Positions 5,443 to 64,000 of a stretch of 64,000 bases of DNA are shown in pieces. The stretch is from Mucilaginibacter empetricola (lineage in GTDB: Bacteria > Bacteroidota > Bacteroidia > Sphingobacteriales > Sphingobacteriaceae): assembly GCF_024808665.1 (NCBI RefSeq), contig NZ_JANUBZ010000003.1:1-64000 (forward strand), in the 5' to 3' direction. Each line of letters starts with the position of its first letter. The first letter of the stretch is position 1. The notes under the pieces were generated by a model, which saw only the letters and a program-made list of their open reading frames with translations, made no database searches and was not told the origin of the DNA. The position numbers and the translations under genes are program-made.

Positions 5443-6255
5443 ATGGAGAGAACAACAGAAAAGGATTCGCTTTACAGCAATTTGGAACAGATGTCTGTAT
5501 TGGAAGTTCTTCAAAATATAAACAAAGAAGACCAGACCGTTCCGGTAGCCGTAGCCAAAGCATTACCTCAAATTGAAGCGTTGGCAACTGTAACTGCTGC
5601 CAGGATGAAACAGGGTGGCAGGCTTTTTTATATTGGTGCCGGTACCAGCGGTAGGTTAGGAGTGGTTGATGCTTCCGAGTGCCCGCCAACTTTCGGTGTT
5701 CCGTTTGATATGGTGGTGGGTCTGATTGCCGGCGGCGATGGCGCCATCCGCAAAGCAGTTGAGTTTGCCGAAGATGATGCGGAACAAGCCTGGATTGATT
5801 TGGCCGAATACCAGATAAATGAAAAAGATGTTTTGGTGGGTATTGCAGCATCGGGCACTACGCCTTATGTAATTGGCGGACTAAAAAAAGCAAACGAAAA
5901 CAATATCACTACGGGCTGCATAGTATGCAATAGCGGCAGCCCGGTAGCAGCAGTTGCGCAATATCCTGTTGAAGTAATTACGGGCCCCGAGTTTTTAACC
6001 GGATCAACCCGCATGAAAGCAGGCACGGCGCAGAAACTGGTGTTAAATATGCTAAGTACCAGTGTGATGATTCAGCTGGGTAAAGTAAAAGGCAATAAAA
6101 TGGTGGATATGCAACTATCAAACAGCAAGCTGATTGACAGAGGCACACACATGGTAATGCAGGAAACCGGACTAAGTGAAGAAGTTGCTGCCGATTTACT
6201 AAAAAAGCACGGAAGTGTTAGAAAAGCAGTAGAGAGTTATAAGCATAATGTGTGA
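5443..6255 (+). CDS. murQ: N-acetylmuramic acid 6-phosphate etherase MurQ
   Basis: A 270-residue cytoplasmic SIS-domain enzyme that splits MurNAc-6-phosphate into GlcNAc-6-phosphate and D-lactate during cell-wall recycling. Family motifs are intact: GAGTSGRLGVVDASECPPTFG near residue 66, ASGTTPYVIGG near 140 and TGSTRMKAGTAQKLVLNMLST near 185. It is slightly shorter than E. coli MurQ (298), at the C-terminus. The ATG at 5443 matches the family N-terminus (TEKDS.Y..L..MSVLEVL). It stands alone in this strand context, without murP or anmK beside it. Confidence 0.93.
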   Translation: MERTTEKDSLYSNLEQMSVLEVLQNINKEDQTVPVAVAKALPQIEALATVTAARMKQGGRLFYIGAGTSGRLGVVDASECPPTFGVPFDMVVGLIAGGDGAIRKAVEFAEDDAEQAWIDLAEYQINEKDVLVGIAASGTTPYVIGGLKKANENNITTGCIVCNSGSPVAAVAQYPVEVITGPEFLTGSTRMKAGTAQKLVLNMLSTSVMIQLGKVKGNKMVDMQLSNSKLIDRGTHMVMQETGLSEEVAADLLKKHGSVRKAVESYKHNV

Positions 6256-58683: not shown

Positions 58684-58807
58684 AGGTATACCAGGCAGAC
58701 GAATGACTAAGGAGAAAATTTTAAAGAAATTTAAAATAAGTGCATAAACTTAAATTCATAAATGCTCATTGTTTCGTCGATTGACTGACCGTTTCGAACA
58801 GAAATCG
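58684..58807. other. AT-rich gap left of the fold-back element
   Basis: No gene or clear motif. It is sequence between the start of the membrane protein and the fold-back palindrome. Confidence 0.4.
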
Positions 58808-59175
58808 TTCCGCTCATGGCCGCGGAGGGCCTAGTTACTTTTGTCTTGACACAAAAGTAACCAAAAAGTCAAGTCAGAAAAAAGCTTCTGCCCGCAGGCT
58901 ATACTCCCGGCCCGCTTTTCTGACTGGCCAACGCTTTTTGCATTGTAATTAATTAAAATATTCTTTGTCAGCAGATAAGCTTCGGCCAAAATCTGGCAAA
59001 ACAATGAGGGCTGGGAGCGCAATGGCAGGGCATAGCAAATTTTCGCATAAAGGGTCTGCGAGTTTCAGGTTATAACGGCGAAAAGATTGCAGCCCAGGTT
59101 TTGTCTGATTTGCAGGGCAAAGGCCCCGAGCGCTAAGAAGCCTTTCTGCTGACTTGATTTTTTTGGTCCTTTTTG

Positions 59176-59183
59176 TATCAAGA
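59176..59183 (+). repeat. Target site duplication, left (TATCAAGA)
   Basis: The 8-bp TATCAAGA lies directly outside the left terminal repeat and is repeated exactly at 63229-63236. Confidence 0.93.
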
Positions 59184-59207
59184 GGAGACTATATACGTGT
59201 TAGACCA
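59184..59207 (+). repeat. Left terminal inverted repeat
   Basis: 24 bp starting GGAGACTATATACGTG and ending TTAGACCA, perfectly matched in inverse at 63205-63228. The stop codon of the zinc-ribbon gene lies 15 bp inside. Confidence 0.93.
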
Positions 59208-59221
59208 TCTGGACTAAAAAA

Positions 59222-59440
59222 TTATTCTTTTTCAGAAACATCAACAGTGTGTCCGTTGGGGCATTCGTACTTTGATACCGTAACTTTCCCATTCTTTAGG
59301 GGTGGCTCAGTCAATTTCATTGGTAACTCACAATAAAGGCAAATCTTTTCAGCCGTCACTGTAGCTTTTTTACTAACGCTGGCTTTCATAATGCTATGAA
59401 AGATGTTGCTTGCTTCTTTGGGGTTCTTTTCGTCTGACAT
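59222..59440 (-). CDS. Small zinc-ribbon protein, 72 aa (transposon cargo)
   Basis: A 72-residue protein with CLYC (34-37) and CPNGH (Cys 60, His 64), four likely zinc ligands, after a helical, charged N-terminus (KNPKEASNIFHSIMKASVSKK). I do not recognise the family. It lies 76 bp downstream of the PIN gene on the same strand and may be the third gene of that transcript. Confidence 0.65.
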   Translation of the reverse strand: MSDEKNPKEASNIFHSIMKASVSKKATVTAEKICLYCELPMKLTEPPLKNGKVTVSKYECPNGHTVDVSEKE

Positions 59441-59516
59441 AATGTAAAATTACGGCAATTGAATTGCAATTTGATAAAAAAATGGGATAACTATTTATCC
59501 AATCATATAAGAGTCA

Positions 59517-60263
59517 TTATAATGGGTCTTCTTCGACATCTAACGCCTTAGTATTCGAGTCGGATAAATCTTCAGCGAAAAGCTCCCCCTGCGTAGCATT
59601 TTTGGGGTTTTCAGCGTCAAATTGATTGAGTGTTTTGAAAGAAATTCTTTTTATATAATTATCGACATTGGCATAATCATAGTCGAAAAAATGGCTCTCT
59701 GAAAATCTAAACAATTCTGGGTAGGTCAATATGCAATTTGCGTCTGGCACATCTTTTATAACGGGGTAAAATGTATTCTTATCAAGAGTTAATATTGCGT
59801 CCGCTTCTTTAATGACGCCATTAAGAGCAATCATATAATCTCTTGTTATCCATTCTCTTGCCATCATATATTCCCCTGTTTTAAATCCTATTTCAGCGGC
59901 CTTTGCATGAAGATTTGTTTTGTCAAGATATGGCTTCAATAAATGATTAAACGCCAATGATGTTGTAGTATCAAAACTTATAAAACGAACGTTATTACTA
60001 TTCAACACTCTCGAAATTAGCTTTATTTTATCCTGATCTTGTTCCTTCGTTAATAATTCAGTTAGGGTAATGGTAGTAATTAGAAAAACTCTTTCAGACC
60101 TGTCCGATGCTTTAGATTGTGACAGATAATCGATTAATTTTGAAACAAAAGCATCGCTTGTGTTATTTATATTAGGGTGCTGAAACCTAAATAGTGAGCA
60201 TATTATGCTCGTATCGATTAATATTTTTTTCCAATCCCTAATGGGTTTATTACTTGATTGCAT
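59517..60263 (-). CDS. PIN-domain nuclease-like protein (transposon cargo)
   Basis: A 248-residue protein. The PIN core (~12-180) keeps the acidic residues: D17 in ILIDTSIICSLF, E69 in TLTELL, D142 in TRDYMIALNGVIKEADA, and D155/D161 in ADAILTLDKNTF. PIN proteins are metal-dependent RNases, most often VapC-type toxins. This one is much longer than VapC (~130) owing to inserts (~28-58, ~105-130) and an acidic C-terminal tail (~180-248). The start overlaps the stop of the upstream gene by 14 bp, which suggests coupled translation. Confidence 0.85.
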   Translation of the reverse strand: MQSSNKPIRDWKKILIDTSIICSLFRFQHPNINNTSDAFVSKLIDYLSQSKASDRSERVFLITTITLTELLTKEQDQDKIKLISRVLNSNNVRFISFDTTTSLAFNHLLKPYLDKTNLHAKAAEIGFKTGEYMMAREWITRDYMIALNGVIKEADAILTLDKNTFYPVIKDVPDANCILTYPELFRFSESHFFDYDYANVDNYIKRISFKTLNQFDAENPKNATQGELFAEDLSDSNTKALDVEEDPL

Positions 60264-60996
60264 AGATACGGTTTAGTATATCTTCAATTGTATGCGTGTT
60301 TTTTATAAGTTCAAAATCAACATATCCTTCACTTTTCAAGTTTTCAGTTAAACTGTTTTCGCTCAATATCACAAAGTCTTCTAATTCACAACTCACAATT
60401 CTTCCATCTATTATTGATCTTTTTTGCCGAACCTCAACTCTAAGTTGATGAGAGCCGTAATACTGTTTTAAATCTATATCTTGTTCTTTGGAAATAGAAA
60501 TTCTATTACTAAATCCGTCTATGCAGATGTGTTTTTTCTTAGCTGAAAGTCGGTTACCACTCCCCAGCTCTGATACCACACCATAAATAGTGTCAGATGT
60601 ATAATAAAATTGAATTAAGCTGGCTGGCTCTATATTAGCTATTACGGCCAGCTCTTTACTCTCACTATCGTAAGCGGTTAGATAATATTTATTACCCAAT
60701 ACAGTTTTTAAATTAGAGGCGTATTTTTGTTGTTCGGGCTCTAAGTCTTCTAAAGAAATCTCTTGTATATTCCTGTGTACAGCCGTAAAATTATTTAGAT
60801 AACCAGCATCCTCGCTGTAAAAATCGAGGGCATAACAATTACCCCTAACCTGTCCCAATGTTAATTTTTCACCACTCCCAGTATCAATGGCATTAAATAA
60901 CGATGCCAGCAAAGGGGCAATTTCATTGATAGGAATACCATTTTCTTTAGAAAGAGTATGGTCTTCGTCATCGATTTTAATTGAAAACTTTATCAT
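60250..60996 (-). CDS. Unrecognised partner of the PIN gene (transposon cargo)
   Basis: A 248-residue cytoplasmic protein with no signal or membrane segment and no family I recognise. The first half begins MIKFSIKIDDEDHTLSKENGIPINEIAPLLASLFNAI and contains QVRGNCYALDFYSED. The second half looks beta-rich (HQLRVEVRQKRSIIDGRIVSCELEDFVIL). No HTH or AbrB motif is seen, so it is not a typical VapB. Its gene is first in the operon and overlaps the PIN gene, the usual place of an antitoxin or a sensor partner. Confidence 0.8.
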   Translation of the reverse strand: MIKFSIKIDDEDHTLSKENGIPINEIAPLLASLFNAIDTGSGEKLTLGQVRGNCYALDFYSEDAGYLNNFTAVHRNIQEISLEDLEPEQQKYASNLKTVLGNKYYLTAYDSESKELAVIANIEPASLIQFYYTSDTIYGVVSELGSGNRLSAKKKHICIDGFSNRISISKEQDIDLKQYYGSHQLRVEVRQKRSIIDGRIVSCELEDFVILSENSLTENLKSEGYVDFELIKNTHTIEDILNRIYAIK

Positions 60997-61003
60997 GGCT
61001 TAA

Positions 61004-61011
61004 CAAATATA
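61004..61011 (-). promoter_or_regulatory. -7 box of the partner/PIN operon
   Basis: The minus strand reads TATATTTG, an exact TAnnTTTG match, 7 nt before the start codon at 60996. A TTTG lies 22 nt upstream of it, slightly longer than the usual spacing. The predicted leader is only a few nucleotides. Confidence 0.55.
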
Positions 61012-61087
61012 TGTTTTTATTGACATAAATATACAAATTTATAACAATTTGACTATCAATTATTTGTAATATTTTAATTGAGATAAT

Positions 61088-61118
61088 TTTGGATTGACAC
61101 AAAATTTTACTATCTTTA
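61088..61118 (+). promoter_or_regulatory. Transposase promoter
   Basis: TTTG (61088-61091), 19 nt, TATCTTTA (61111-61118). Only the final base deviates from consensus. It is back-to-back with the cargo promoter, so transposase and cargo are transcribed divergently. Confidence 0.6.
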
Positions 61119-61137
61119 ATTAACAAAAAATAAGGCA

Positions 61138-62076
61138 GTGAAAACGTTCAAAAACATATTCGACTTTCAAGCACACTTCAATACAGAGGATAAGTGCAGA
61201 GAATATTTAGAAGCTCAAAGGTGGGGTAATACTCCAGCTTGCCCTTGTTGCGCATCAACAAACGTTCGCCGGTTTGCTACTAATAACAGAATTTTTAAAT
61301 GCCGTGAAAAAGAGTGTCGCAAAAAATTCAGCGTTACCGTTGGCACTATTTATGAAAATACTAAAATTCCATTAACCAAATGGTTTTTGGCAACTTACAT
61401 TTTATCAGTTCATTCTAAAGGTATAAGCAGTTTACAATTGGCAGCATGGCTGGGCGTAACTCAAAAAACCGCATGGCATTTAAACCACAGGATTAGAGAA
61501 ATGCTGACAGTTACCGCACCTGAATTGTTAGAGGGAATTGTAGAAATTGATGAAAGTTATGTTGGTGGCTCTGAATCAAACAAACATGCAAGCAAAAGAA
61601 CTGTAAGAGGTGGTGCAGGTAATAAAGCTATGGTCTTAGGTGCTGTTCAAAGGGGTGGCAATGTAAAAACTAAGGTTATAGCTAAAACAGATGCACATAA
61701 CGTAATTCCTACTATTAAAGAATTTGTTGCTAAGGATAGTATTATGGTAACAGATGAACATAATGCTTATAACAAACTTCATTTGGATTATACACATAAG
61801 AGAGTAAATCACAGAGAGAAAGAGTATGTGCGTTATGAAGATATAAAGGTACATACAAACTCTATTGAGGGATTTTGGAACATCTTAAAAAAGCAAATTA
61901 ACGGCATACATCATTCGGTAAGTGCAAAGCATTTACAACGCTATTGCGATGAATCTGCATTCCGTTACAATCGCCGTAAGGCTTTACAGGATGAAAGATT
62001 TGCCGATGCTTTAGCCAATTGTGAGGGTACATTAAAATACGAAAAATTGACAGGCAAACCCAAAAAGAAAAAATGA
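61138..62076 (+). CDS. IS1595-family (ISXO2-like) transposase
   Basis: A 312-residue transposase. An N-terminal zinc ribbon (C35-C38 in CPCC; C55 and C60 in CREKEC) and a helix-turn-helix-like region (ISSLQLAAWLGVTQKTAWHLNHRIRE) precede the ISXO2-like catalytic core. That core has GIVEIDESYVGG (D138), MVTDEHNAY (D206) and HTNSIEGFWNILKKQ (N241/E244), followed by YRCDESAFRYNRR-like RYCDESAFRYNRRK. The start is GTG. The stop overlaps the next gene's ATG (ATGA). No frameshift or loss, so it is probably active. Confidence 0.95.
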   Translation: MKTFKNIFDFQAHFNTEDKCREYLEAQRWGNTPACPCCASTNVRRFATNNRIFKCREKECRKKFSVTVGTIYENTKIPLTKWFLATYILSVHSKGISSLQLAAWLGVTQKTAWHLNHRIREMLTVTAPELLEGIVEIDESYVGGSESNKHASKRTVRGGAGNKAMVLGAVQRGGNVKTKVIAKTDAHNVIPTIKEFVAKDSIMVTDEHNAYNKLHLDYTHKRVNHREKEYVRYEDIKVHTNSIEGFWNILKKQINGIHHSVSAKHLQRYCDESAFRYNRRKALQDERFADALANCEGTLKYEKLTGKPKKKK

Positions 62077-62282
62077 AACAGGATATATTCCTTATAGAAA
62101 TGGGGCAAAAGATCAGGACAGCCCGCAAAGCAAAAAAAATGCCCATTAATATAATGGCCGATCTTACAAAGATTGATATGTCTAATCTATCGTTTTTAGA
62201 GCGTGGTATGCGCAACTGTCACATACTTAGTTTAAAGAGCATTGCGGATGTATTGGATATGGATGTGAAAGATTTTCTTTAA
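62073..62282 (+). CDS. XRE-type HTH protein, 69 aa (transposon)
   Basis: A single helix-turn-helix of the Cro/CI type (MGQKIRTARKAKKMPINIMADLTKIDMSNLSFLERGMRNCHILSLKSIADVLDMDVKDFL) fills the protein. The ATG overlaps the transposase stop by 4 bp, so the two are translationally coupled. It could regulate transposition or serve as an antitoxin for the cargo. Such an HTH fused by overlap to an IS1595 transposase is not part of the minimal element. Confidence 0.85.
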   Translation: MKQDIFLIEMGQKIRTARKAKKMPINIMADLTKIDMSNLSFLERGMRNCHILSLKSIADVLDMDVKDFL

Positions 62283-62290
62283 ATACTGTT

Positions 62291-62830
62291 TTAAGCCCCG
62301 TGACAGTGTTTATATTTCCTACCACTACCACATGGACATTTGTCATTCCTCCCAACTTTTGGAATATTATTACTGTTTGAATCGTTAATAATAGTTTTCG
62401 GGGCAGGTAACTTAAATTCGAAAACGTGCTTATAGTTTTCATGGATAAGTGTAAACTCACCCTGTGCAATTATATCCATACCTATAAGTACATCGAAGTC
62501 CTTAAGCTTTCCCTCAGACACCCGTAAATATTGGAACCCTACATTGTTTGGAAGAAGTATATTTATGTAATAGGTTTCAACATTCGTTTGACCATCAGCG
62601 TGGAAACTAGTGATTTTGCCACGAGGGATAAGGTTTAATTCGGTTGCAACTTTTTTTGTTATTACAGTATTAGTCGCTCCTGTATCCCAAAGCGCATTAT
62701 ATTGAATCGTTTTAGGATGAGGTATTATAGTGGGATCGAAAGCTTCAGAAATGTGACATTCAGTAATTATAGTTGCAAAGTTTTTATTAATTGGGCTTTC
62801 CCTTTTAAACCCTTGATATGACTTACTCAT
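62291..62830 (-). CDS. Retropepsin-like aspartic protease with SEC-C motif (transposon cargo)
   Basis: A 179-residue protein. The retropepsin-like domain (~40-135) has the active-site motif WDTGATNT (D49) and the family's second hallmark DVLIGMDII (~113-121). A C-terminal zinc SEC-C motif (160-178, [19 protein letters not shown]165/C167/C176/H177) resembles that of SecA and is used to bind partners. One D-T-G per chain implies a homodimer. The gene overlaps the DUF5678-like gene by one base at 62830. It converges with the HTH gene 8 bp away. Confidence 0.85.
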
Positions 62831-63087
62831 TAAGCAAATGTAACTCTCGAGTGAAAATGCTGGGTTGTAGATGTGTCACCCGACTCACAATATTGCACTA
62901 AAAATGTTCCCGCTCCAAGTGTTTTATCCGATTCAGAAATAGCTTGAACAACCGTATCGTAAGCTTTAACAACAGATTCATTCTTAATAACTAAGAACTT
63001 CTTATTGTATTTTTTTACGAGTTCGTCTTGGTGATCAATATAATATTTAAACTCTTTATCTAACATAGCTGCAAAGGTAACACTCAT
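62830..63087 (-). CDS. DUF5678-like small protein (transposon cargo)
   Basis: An 85-residue protein resembling DUF5678 (residues ~14-65, [37 protein letters not shown]). The start may be 63087 or the internal ATG at codon 8. It precedes and overlaps the retropepsin-like gene, so the pair is one translational unit. I know of this kind of small protein next to retropepsin-like genes only as a genomic association. No function is established. Confidence 0.72.
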
Positions 63088-63204
63088 TTACGGTTTAAGT
63101 TTAATACGAATGTAATTTACAATTAGTTTTAATATATACAATGGGGTTATTACACCATTTCAATATTCGGGTTTTACGCTATTTTTTAAAAAAATACACC
63201 CCGC

Positions 63205-63228
63205 TGGTCTAACACGTATATAGTCTCC
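63205..63228 (-). repeat. Right terminal inverted repeat
   Basis: 24 bp, TGGTCTAACACG to TAGTCTCC, the exact inverse of 59184-59207. The 117 bp between the DUF5678-like gene and this repeat hold no gene. Confidence 0.93.
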
Positions 63229-63236
63229 TATCAAGA
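63229..63236 (+). repeat. Target site duplication, right (TATCAAGA)
   Basis: Exact copy of 59176-59183, directly outside the right terminal repeat. Confidence 0.93.
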
Positions 63237-63343
63237 CAAAAAGGACTAGCCCTTCCGCGGCAATTGAGCGGGACGATGATTGCATGAACCAATCAGTCAA
63301 TACAAATAATAACAACGTATGATTTCAAAAGGAAATATTCAAT

Positions 63344-64000
63344 TTACTCCAAAAACAACGTATCATCCTCATCCCCCAAACTCAAATGAATCATATCACT
63401 ACCCGCTATACCTTCAATAGACCCTTTGATATGAGCAGCGTTTAATAAAACCTTTTCCAATTGCTTTTCGCGGGCCTTCCATAGTTTTTCCATAGCGTCA
63501 CGCTCTTTTTGTATAGAGATACGCATGCTCATATAGCCCTCGCGGATGGCTTTCCATTGTTCAGAGAATTCATTACTTATCAGATAGTCATAAAGGAGAT
63601 GCATTTTATCACCTTTATTATCCTGGGCTTTGGCCAGGTTAGCCAGTTTAATAATGCCATCGCGCAGAATGTAGGACACAGCCTTTACTTCGTCGAATGA
63701 GCATATCCACACACCGTCGCGTTCGCCAAAACAATCCATCCCTTTTGGGTAACATTGGGTAACAATAACAGCAACATCCACGCCAATGGCGCGCATATCT
63801 TTTTTCAGCTTATCAATCCAGTCCATGGAGAAATCCTTGGTGCGCTTGCTCTCATAAATAATCCGACCGCATTCCTGTCCAAACTGATTGCGTACGGTTT
63901 GCACACAATCGGCACCGCGTACACCTTTGCCCACCTCGCTAATCATATCAAAAGGGAAATTATCACGCAGCAACTCCTCTAAAATTAATTCCTGCACTTC
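63344..64000 (-). CDS. DUF2130 protein, C-terminal part (5' end outside window)
   Basis: The open frame enters from beyond the right edge. The visible ~218 residues match the DUF2130 domain: GKGVRGADCVQTVRNQFGQECGRIIYESKRTKDFSMDWIDKLKKDMR, VAVIVTQCYPKGMDCFGERDGVWICSFDEVKAV, then a coiled C-terminal segment and an acidic tail (LSLGDEDDTLFLE). The E-S-K and D motifs suggest a PD-(D/E)xK-like fold. Function unknown; members often have a long N-terminal coiled coil, which would lie outside the window. Confidence 0.88.
   Translation of the reverse strand, partial: EVQELILEELLRDNFPFDMISEVGKGVRGADCVQTVRNQFGQECGRIIYESKRTKDFSMDWIDKLKKDMRAIGVDVAVIVTQCYPKGMDCFGERDGVWICSFDEVKAVSYILRDGIIKLANLAKAQDNKGDKMHLLYDYLISNEFSEQWKAIREGYMSMRISIQKERDAMEKLWKAREKQLEKVLLNAAHIKGSIEGIAGSDMIHLSLGDEDDTLFLE

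Follow-up and report, generated by a model that had tools for sequence, protein, structure and literature searches.

The window analysed here is the whole 64-kb stretch (64,000 nucleotides) of Mucilaginibacter empetricola contig NZ_JANUBZ010000003.1, and it holds a 4,045-bp transposon of the IS1595 family of insertion sequences (IS) at 59184..63228, which we call the window element; L-numbers denote loci retrieved in genome searches. The element is real to the base, as the initial annotation had proposed. Its left terminal inverted repeat (59184..59207, plus strand) is identical at 24/24 positions to the right one (63205..63228, minus strand, 24 bp), and these perfect ends are flanked on both sides by the 8-bp target duplication TATCAAGA (59176..59183 and 63229..63236). 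There is one full copy in the genome of origin (5.83 Mb in 39 contigs). A single open reading frame (ORF) encodes a transposase, a DDE protein of 312 aa (61138..62076, plus strand) whose C-terminal DDE_Tnp_IS1595 domain (PF12762, 1.4e-42; NF033547, 195 bits against a cut-off of 75) is preceded by an N-terminal zinc ribbon (PF12760, 3.2e-10). Because both diagnostic transposase domains are present, we assign the element to the IS1595 family; with its exact ends it is a complete transposon of that family, and its description as an intact one with passengers stands. The remaining ORFs are extra genes, some belonging to a shared backbone and others to cargo.

The backbone of the element

Transposase searches at E<=1e-60 took in 395 genomes of the phylum (16 matching) and 149 of the genus (23 matching), the genome of origin included. 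The closest clade, with transposases at least 70% identical, comprises the window element, L055, L056, L058, L059 and L060. L060 is a 1,327-bp deletion derivative and the other five have a near-full transposase, interrupted in L055 by an early frameshift; the left end of L055 was not located. Directly 3' of the transposase in 6/6 of these elements is a helix-turn-helix (HTH) gene, encoding in the window element a Cro/C1-type protein of 69 aa (62073..62282, plus strand; 4-nt overlap with the transposase). The arm opposite the transposase contains, in 5/5 of the elements with a near-full transposase and divergent from it, a gene for a microprotein with the motif xPKEASNIFHSIMKASV. The window version (72 aa; 59222..59440, minus strand) has the motif as KNPKEASNIFHSIMKASV followed by a zinc-ribbon-like tail, and that of L056 reads AQASNIFHNIMAASV; tails elsewhere are lysine-rich or unrelated stretches. 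Since all five elements with a near-full transposase have both genes, the HTH and microprotein genes are backbone and not cargo, which corrects the initial annotation, where the HTH gene and a zinc-ribbon gene (the microprotein with its variable tail) were counted among the passengers. The divergent transposase and left-hand cargo genes, for which the initial annotation proposed divergent promoters that would keep the cargo expressed independently of transposition, are separated by 141 bp (60997..61137). A sigma-70 scan of the whole stretch gave 28 sites against 18.7 (standard deviation 4.3) in shuffles, this promoter type being ill-suited to Bacteroidota.

A protein search with the microprotein, which relies on shared 5-residue words and favours conserved copies, returned 81 proteins, counting the query, at E<=0.01, none of them with a Pfam domain. 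An alignment of 21 hand-picked short proteins has 17 invariant positions. Among twelve distinct DNA versions from available loci, the ratio of non-synonymous to synonymous variation (pN/pS) is 0.20 with a pS of 0.69; the pattern used to choose the versions holds many residues constant, which lowers pN, and the result shows mainly free variation at synonymous sites. The 149 genus genomes yielded 26 microprotein rows in 19 genomes, two places being counted twice, and 24/26 rows have the terminal repeat within their 3-kb locus (with at most 3 substitutions in 23 and 6 in L153), the 3-kb loci L151 and L165 having none. That the motif might be a mobile tag joined to genes of the host was not supported, as most of the copies printed have their own ATG start and several odd N-termini resemble frameshifts, although in a few longer proteins (P0156) the motif comes far from the N-terminus. 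We also observed that a non-coding box of about 115 nt is conserved ahead of the microprotein operon (L168:9437, L170:9002, L058:11218, also L177 and L178); in L180 the box lies upstream of another gene. Rfam searches of the L168 copy of this box and of the window element gave one match each, both below the curated cut-off.

Insertion at the loop of palindromic repeats

The host DNA on either side of the element belongs to a dispersed repeat. Its left arm, GTCCTTTTTG (59166..59175), is complementary at 10/10 positions to the right arm, CAAAAAGGAC (63237..63246); the empty site reads GTCCTTTTTG-TATCAAGA-CAAAAAGGAC, and the duplicated 8 bp are the loop of a palindrome with 10-bp arms. In the near relatives L058, L059 and L060, from two other genomes, the duplication is again the loop of the same repeat, with arms of the CTTTTG..CAAAAG type. 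L056 occupies a different palindrome, with a 7-bp duplication, TGGCCGA, between TGGTTCG and CGAACCA. Closest-clade elements, then, repeatedly insert at the loop of a palindromic repeat.

The hairpin is also maintained where the repeat is unoccupied. A search of the genome of origin with a neighbouring copy gave 11 rows (nine unoccupied, one partial and one occupied), and the arms still pair in 9/9 unoccupied copies, with a single mispair in L133, while the arm sequences differ (GTTAC/GTAAC, GTCCT/AGGAC, TTTTGG/CCAAAA, CTTTTTC/GAAAAAG) and the loops vary, being shorter in L137 and L140. The exact loop-and-arm pattern has four unoccupied matches, one of them inside the window at 58839-58856; the looser pattern (at most 2 mismatches) proves little alone because it has 9 matches against 6 for its reversal.

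The palindrome score averages 6.29 over the 34 IS1595 insertions that were delimited, compared with 4.19 at 6,201 intergenic control positions of the same loci, and 0/20,000 resamplings reach the observed mean. With one site per repeated target (26/34) the mean is 5.63 and again 0/20,000 resamplings reach it. The enrichment is qualified by the distribution, 14/34 sites scoring at least 7 and 20/34 lower. Dropped from the set were the candidate ends of L010 (17/24, enclosing 5,986 bp that run across adjacent genes), those of L062, whose match is offset, and lower-ranked end alternatives in L063, L074 and L084; L056 was entered by hand with its 7-bp duplication. Many DDE dimers prefer symmetric, flexible or AT-rich target DNA, and the transposase might merely favour such B-form DNA, in which case the hairpins would be no more than the symmetric sequences most often met between genes in these genomes. 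In keeping with this, the sites of further IS1595 elements in the genus include short, AT-rich, symmetric ones, for example tgtcaAATATATTtgaca, or the off-centre CCCCTCTCAAGAGGGG, and the 8-bp duplications of ISApl4 are described as preferably A/T-rich in the part of PMC12561309 that we consulted. Against it, the duplication in the closest clade is exactly the loop, the arms beside it form 6-10 pairs and have unrelated sequences (CTTTTG-type and TGGTTCG), and arm types that share no sequence with one another are met repeatedly. We consider a simple preference for symmetric DNA a real contender, if one with the odds somewhat against it.

The terminal repeat can be followed beyond complete elements. 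An end pattern found 43 places in 26/149 genus genomes; ten of these ends form five pairs and 33 have no partner matching the pattern. Thirty have loci that were inspected, and in 27 the end is directly followed by an arm of one of three types (13 CAAAA, 12 CCAAC/T and 2 CTAC), the exceptions being L186, L198 and L208. In a control set of 95,856 positions, coding as well as non-coding, 0.35%, 0.23% and 0.26% are followed by such arm starts. Many copies in L168-L182 and L183-L212 are one-ended: next to the terminal repeat stands one half of a target hairpin, and the microprotein is often present. Where checked, no second end lies within several kb, L181 excepted. Their interpretation as short two-ended elements was rejected: the 15 wider regions, a biased sample in that all were chosen by the microprotein, gave a second end for L181 only (862 bp, with an exact duplication and a second end equal to the first 8 bases of the end). 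L170:9000-9700 is a tandem of two one-ended units, the first stopping immediately ahead of the microprotein motif of the second.

A resident REP-associated tyrosine transposase (RAYT; REP, repetitive extragenic palindrome) as maker of the target repeat found no support, the repeat being unmatched in the 1.5-kb flanks of the seven Y1 transposase genes in the genome of origin. Close to the L056 element there is a gene that by eye resembles a REP-associated Y1 transposase (L056:5454-6008). An unoccupied repeat copy with an intact hairpin (58767-58926, minus strand) lies in inverted orientation at a distance of about 330 bp from the occupied one, and similar inverted repeat pairs about 300 bp apart are seen in contigs C7 and C11. 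The right flank of the window element adjoins a gene for a DUF2130 protein (63344-63997, minus strand), which runs to the end of the window.

Exchangeable cargo

The left-hand cargo is a pair of 248-aa proteins encoded on the minus strand, a PIN-fold nuclease (59517..60263) and a partner (60250..60996) whose ORF overlaps that of the nuclease by 14 nt; the annotation of a PIN nuclease pair as cargo was borne out. By its predicted fold the first is a VapC-like PIN nuclease, a placement from a limited second look with VIA, in which missing families may still match. Acidic residues D17, E69, D142, D155 and D161 are invariant in 25 aligned PIN rows, a conservation seen in the alignment and not by superposition on an active site. 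The partner has an N-terminal alpha/beta part and an OB-fold-like part at residues 130-216. Neither protein carries a ready label: the window PIN protein has no Pfam match, Pfam has no name for the partner or for most PIN members, the partner matched no antitoxin family in Pfam, NCBIfam, PADLOC or PHROGs, PADLOC names neither member of the pair, and no credible hit came from sequence searches of the PDB, run with the two cargo alignments and with one PIN relative.

The pair occurs on varied carriers. It is found on or beside IS1595 elements in four other loci (L008, L010, L011 and L056) and among phage genes, with no nearby transposase, in three (L014, L016 and L017); L009, where the PIN gene is broken, and L012 have neither a nearby transposase nor, as read by eye, a phage gene. 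Gene order and ORF overlap are kept in distant genera. Cargo and transposase relationships disagree: between the window element and L056 the transposases are 70% identical, the partners 29% and the PIN proteins 34%, compared with 42% (over a fragment), 63% and 59% for L008. This disagreement, together with the variety of carriers, leads us to conclude that the pair moves between carriers. The loci away from any transposase go part of the way towards the cargo being an ordinary chromosomal block, the alternative that had been raised for it, with phage genes as the surroundings in three of them and none seen in L009 and L012. The refuting condition set initially, that copies with the same ends would always lack these genes, fails for the PIN pair, which 1/5 other clade elements has (L056, whose ends are near-identical), and holds, in the copies seen, for the protease pair described below, which is in 0/5. 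We found no second element with the same cargo set, in agreement with the initial annotation, which knew of no described combination of this kind.

We infer that the PIN pair most likely works as a toxin-antitoxin or phage-defence module. It could instead have a housekeeping role in RNA processing, as a nuclease whose second subunit binds the substrate, given that RNase P-like and exosome proteins are among the matches of the PIN model, with lower Z (8.1 and 7.8), and that the partner, as modelled, resembles a nucleic-acid-binding OB protein. The pair is sparse, however, occurring in 2/149 genomes searched, the genome of origin being one of the two, and in 7 loci in a scan of genome contigs with two patterns, and it is carried on transposons and among phage genes; a housekeeping role is in our judgement unlikely.

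The second cargo module lies between the HTH gene and the right end. It consists of a 179-aa retropepsin-like aspartyl protease with a DTGA motif and a C-terminal SEC-C motif (62291..62830, minus strand; PF13975 7.7e-9, PF02810 1.7e-10) and, upstream of it, an 85-aa DUF5678-related protein (62830..63087, minus strand). Nine protease relatives were fetched, eight through the phylum search (E<=1e-15) and one through the genus search. A protein of the 85-aa type was matched directly upstream of the protease in 8/9 of these loci, and the ninth, L122, has an unmatched 85-aa ORF in the same position. The window 85-aa protein has no DUF5678 match at E<=1. Among the eight relatives scanned, two exceed the DUF5678 cut-off (L115 and L118), four fall below it (L119, L120, L121 and L123) and two have no match (L116 and L117), and the two above and four below support the retropepsin/DUF5678 label given initially. 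This pair, too, has diverse neighbours, adjoining phage portal and terminase genes in L115 and a transposase fragment (50% identity) in L123.

Extra genes are the norm in the family as sampled here: of 33 IS1595 elements with ends, only L085 (964 bp) lacks an extra ORF of at least 60 aa, the ORFs being counted mechanically. Twenty cargo proteins were picked for Pfam, ten from the closest clade and ten that looked promising, and in this non-random sample 8/20 have a family above cut-off and 12/20 do not. The families are Fic/Doc (L065), SocA-Panacea (L068, L071 and L084), P63C (L058, L074 and L084) and SecB (L059), with a UDG match just below cut-off in L082. Judged by such matches, toxin-antitoxin-like cargo recurs on IS1595 elements, and most of the cargo picked has no family. 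In the cargo at L059:9909-10612 the SecB-like protein is encoded downstream of an 88-aa gene, an arrangement that we take to be reminiscent of chaperone-linked toxin-antitoxin systems. Least probable of the alternatives is that the cargo consists of bystander genes captured by chance, without selected function and bound to decay: cargo does differ from copy to copy, several copies are decayed or one-ended and the L009 PIN gene is broken, but the order and overlap of the PIN module persist in distant genera, a DUF5678-type gene stands upstream of the protease in nearly every locus and some cargos are recognisable toxin-antitoxin families.

Proposed mechanism and relation to known systems

We favour, with a probability of roughly 0.68, the explanation that this is a complete IS1595 transposon that chooses hairpin loops and carries exchangeable compact conflict modules, a reading built on the observed anatomy, family, backbone genes, loop insertion and disagreement between cargo and transposase. 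The same estimate covers the layout that it would give the lineage, namely end, microprotein (KNPKEASNIFHSIMKASV), exchangeable cargo, transposase/HTH operon, exchangeable cargo and end. The transposase would cut at the 24-bp ends and, perhaps with the microprotein, select the loop of hairpin-forming repeats for insertion, a choice that would keep the element mostly between genes. The HTH protein probably represses the transposase operon, and the microprotein may assist at the end or at the target. The cargo modules would help their carrier to persist. The PIN protein would act as a nuclease on RNA, and its OB-fold-like partner, encoded with it in one operon of overlapping genes, may restrain or direct its activity through nucleic-acid binding, in the manner of a toxin-antitoxin system or of abortive phage defence; in the DUF5678/retropepsin module the protease may act on its partner or be held by it. 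A bolder version, which we put forward tentatively and would not bet on, is that this DDE lineage reads DNA shape, that is, a hairpin loop with any arm sequence, that the conserved microprotein aids this choice or transposition, and that the lineage serves as a shuttle for conflict modules including the unnamed OB-fold/PIN pair. Hairpin-loop insertion into dispersed repeats, if true, would be a safe-harbour rule for a DDE transposon. The window element links a known transposon family with targeting of unusual precision and with mobile toxin-like modules. Its OB/PIN pair, a mobile module that is compact and recurs, is a candidate toxin or phage-defence system.

Each cargo pair can be set beside a known arrangement. 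VapBC type II toxin-antitoxin systems share a PIN-fold protein with the window pair; VapB, however, is short and DNA-binding, whereas the window partner has 248 aa with alpha/beta and OB-like parts, the two window ORFs overlap by 14 nt and the window PIN protein is too distant for Pfam. The protease pair resembles the PADLOC candidate PDC-M08, under which name we found no paper, in its DUF5678-type partner and its retropepsin-like protein (a weak match to member B, PDC-M08B, at 0.0014, the stronger PADLOC matches at 6.8e-7 and 1.6e-6 involving the SEC-C tail only), and differs from it in riding on an IS1595 transposon.

Other IS families target REP palindromes, and insertion into dispersed palindromes is common to those IS, to RAYT/REP systems and to the window element; here, however, it is an IS1595 element that inserts, and its duplication is identical with the loop. 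The IS1595 family, including members with passenger genes, is reportedly the subject of Siguier et al. 2009. In the literature on IS1595 targets and passengers, with that work known through citing papers, we found no account of hairpin targeting by the family.

According to the portions of the sources consulted, IS1595 elements make 8-bp duplications and have one transposase gene with an N-terminal zinc finger, IS1016 excepted (PMC8101967), IS families with passenger-carrying members are known and termed tIS (PMC7986276), and IS66 members with passengers are likewise known (PMC12888890); the portion of PMC7371123 seen has nothing on IS1595 passengers. The window element shares with its family the DDE_Tnp_IS1595 domain, the N-terminal zinc ribbon and the 8-bp duplication. 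It differs in its insertion site, the loop of a palindrome repeated in the host genome, in having an HTH gene and a motif-bearing microprotein in its backbone, and in its OB/PIN and DUF5678/retropepsin cargo. Passenger-carrying IS1595 elements being already known, the new parts are the hairpin targeting, the microprotein and the cargo.

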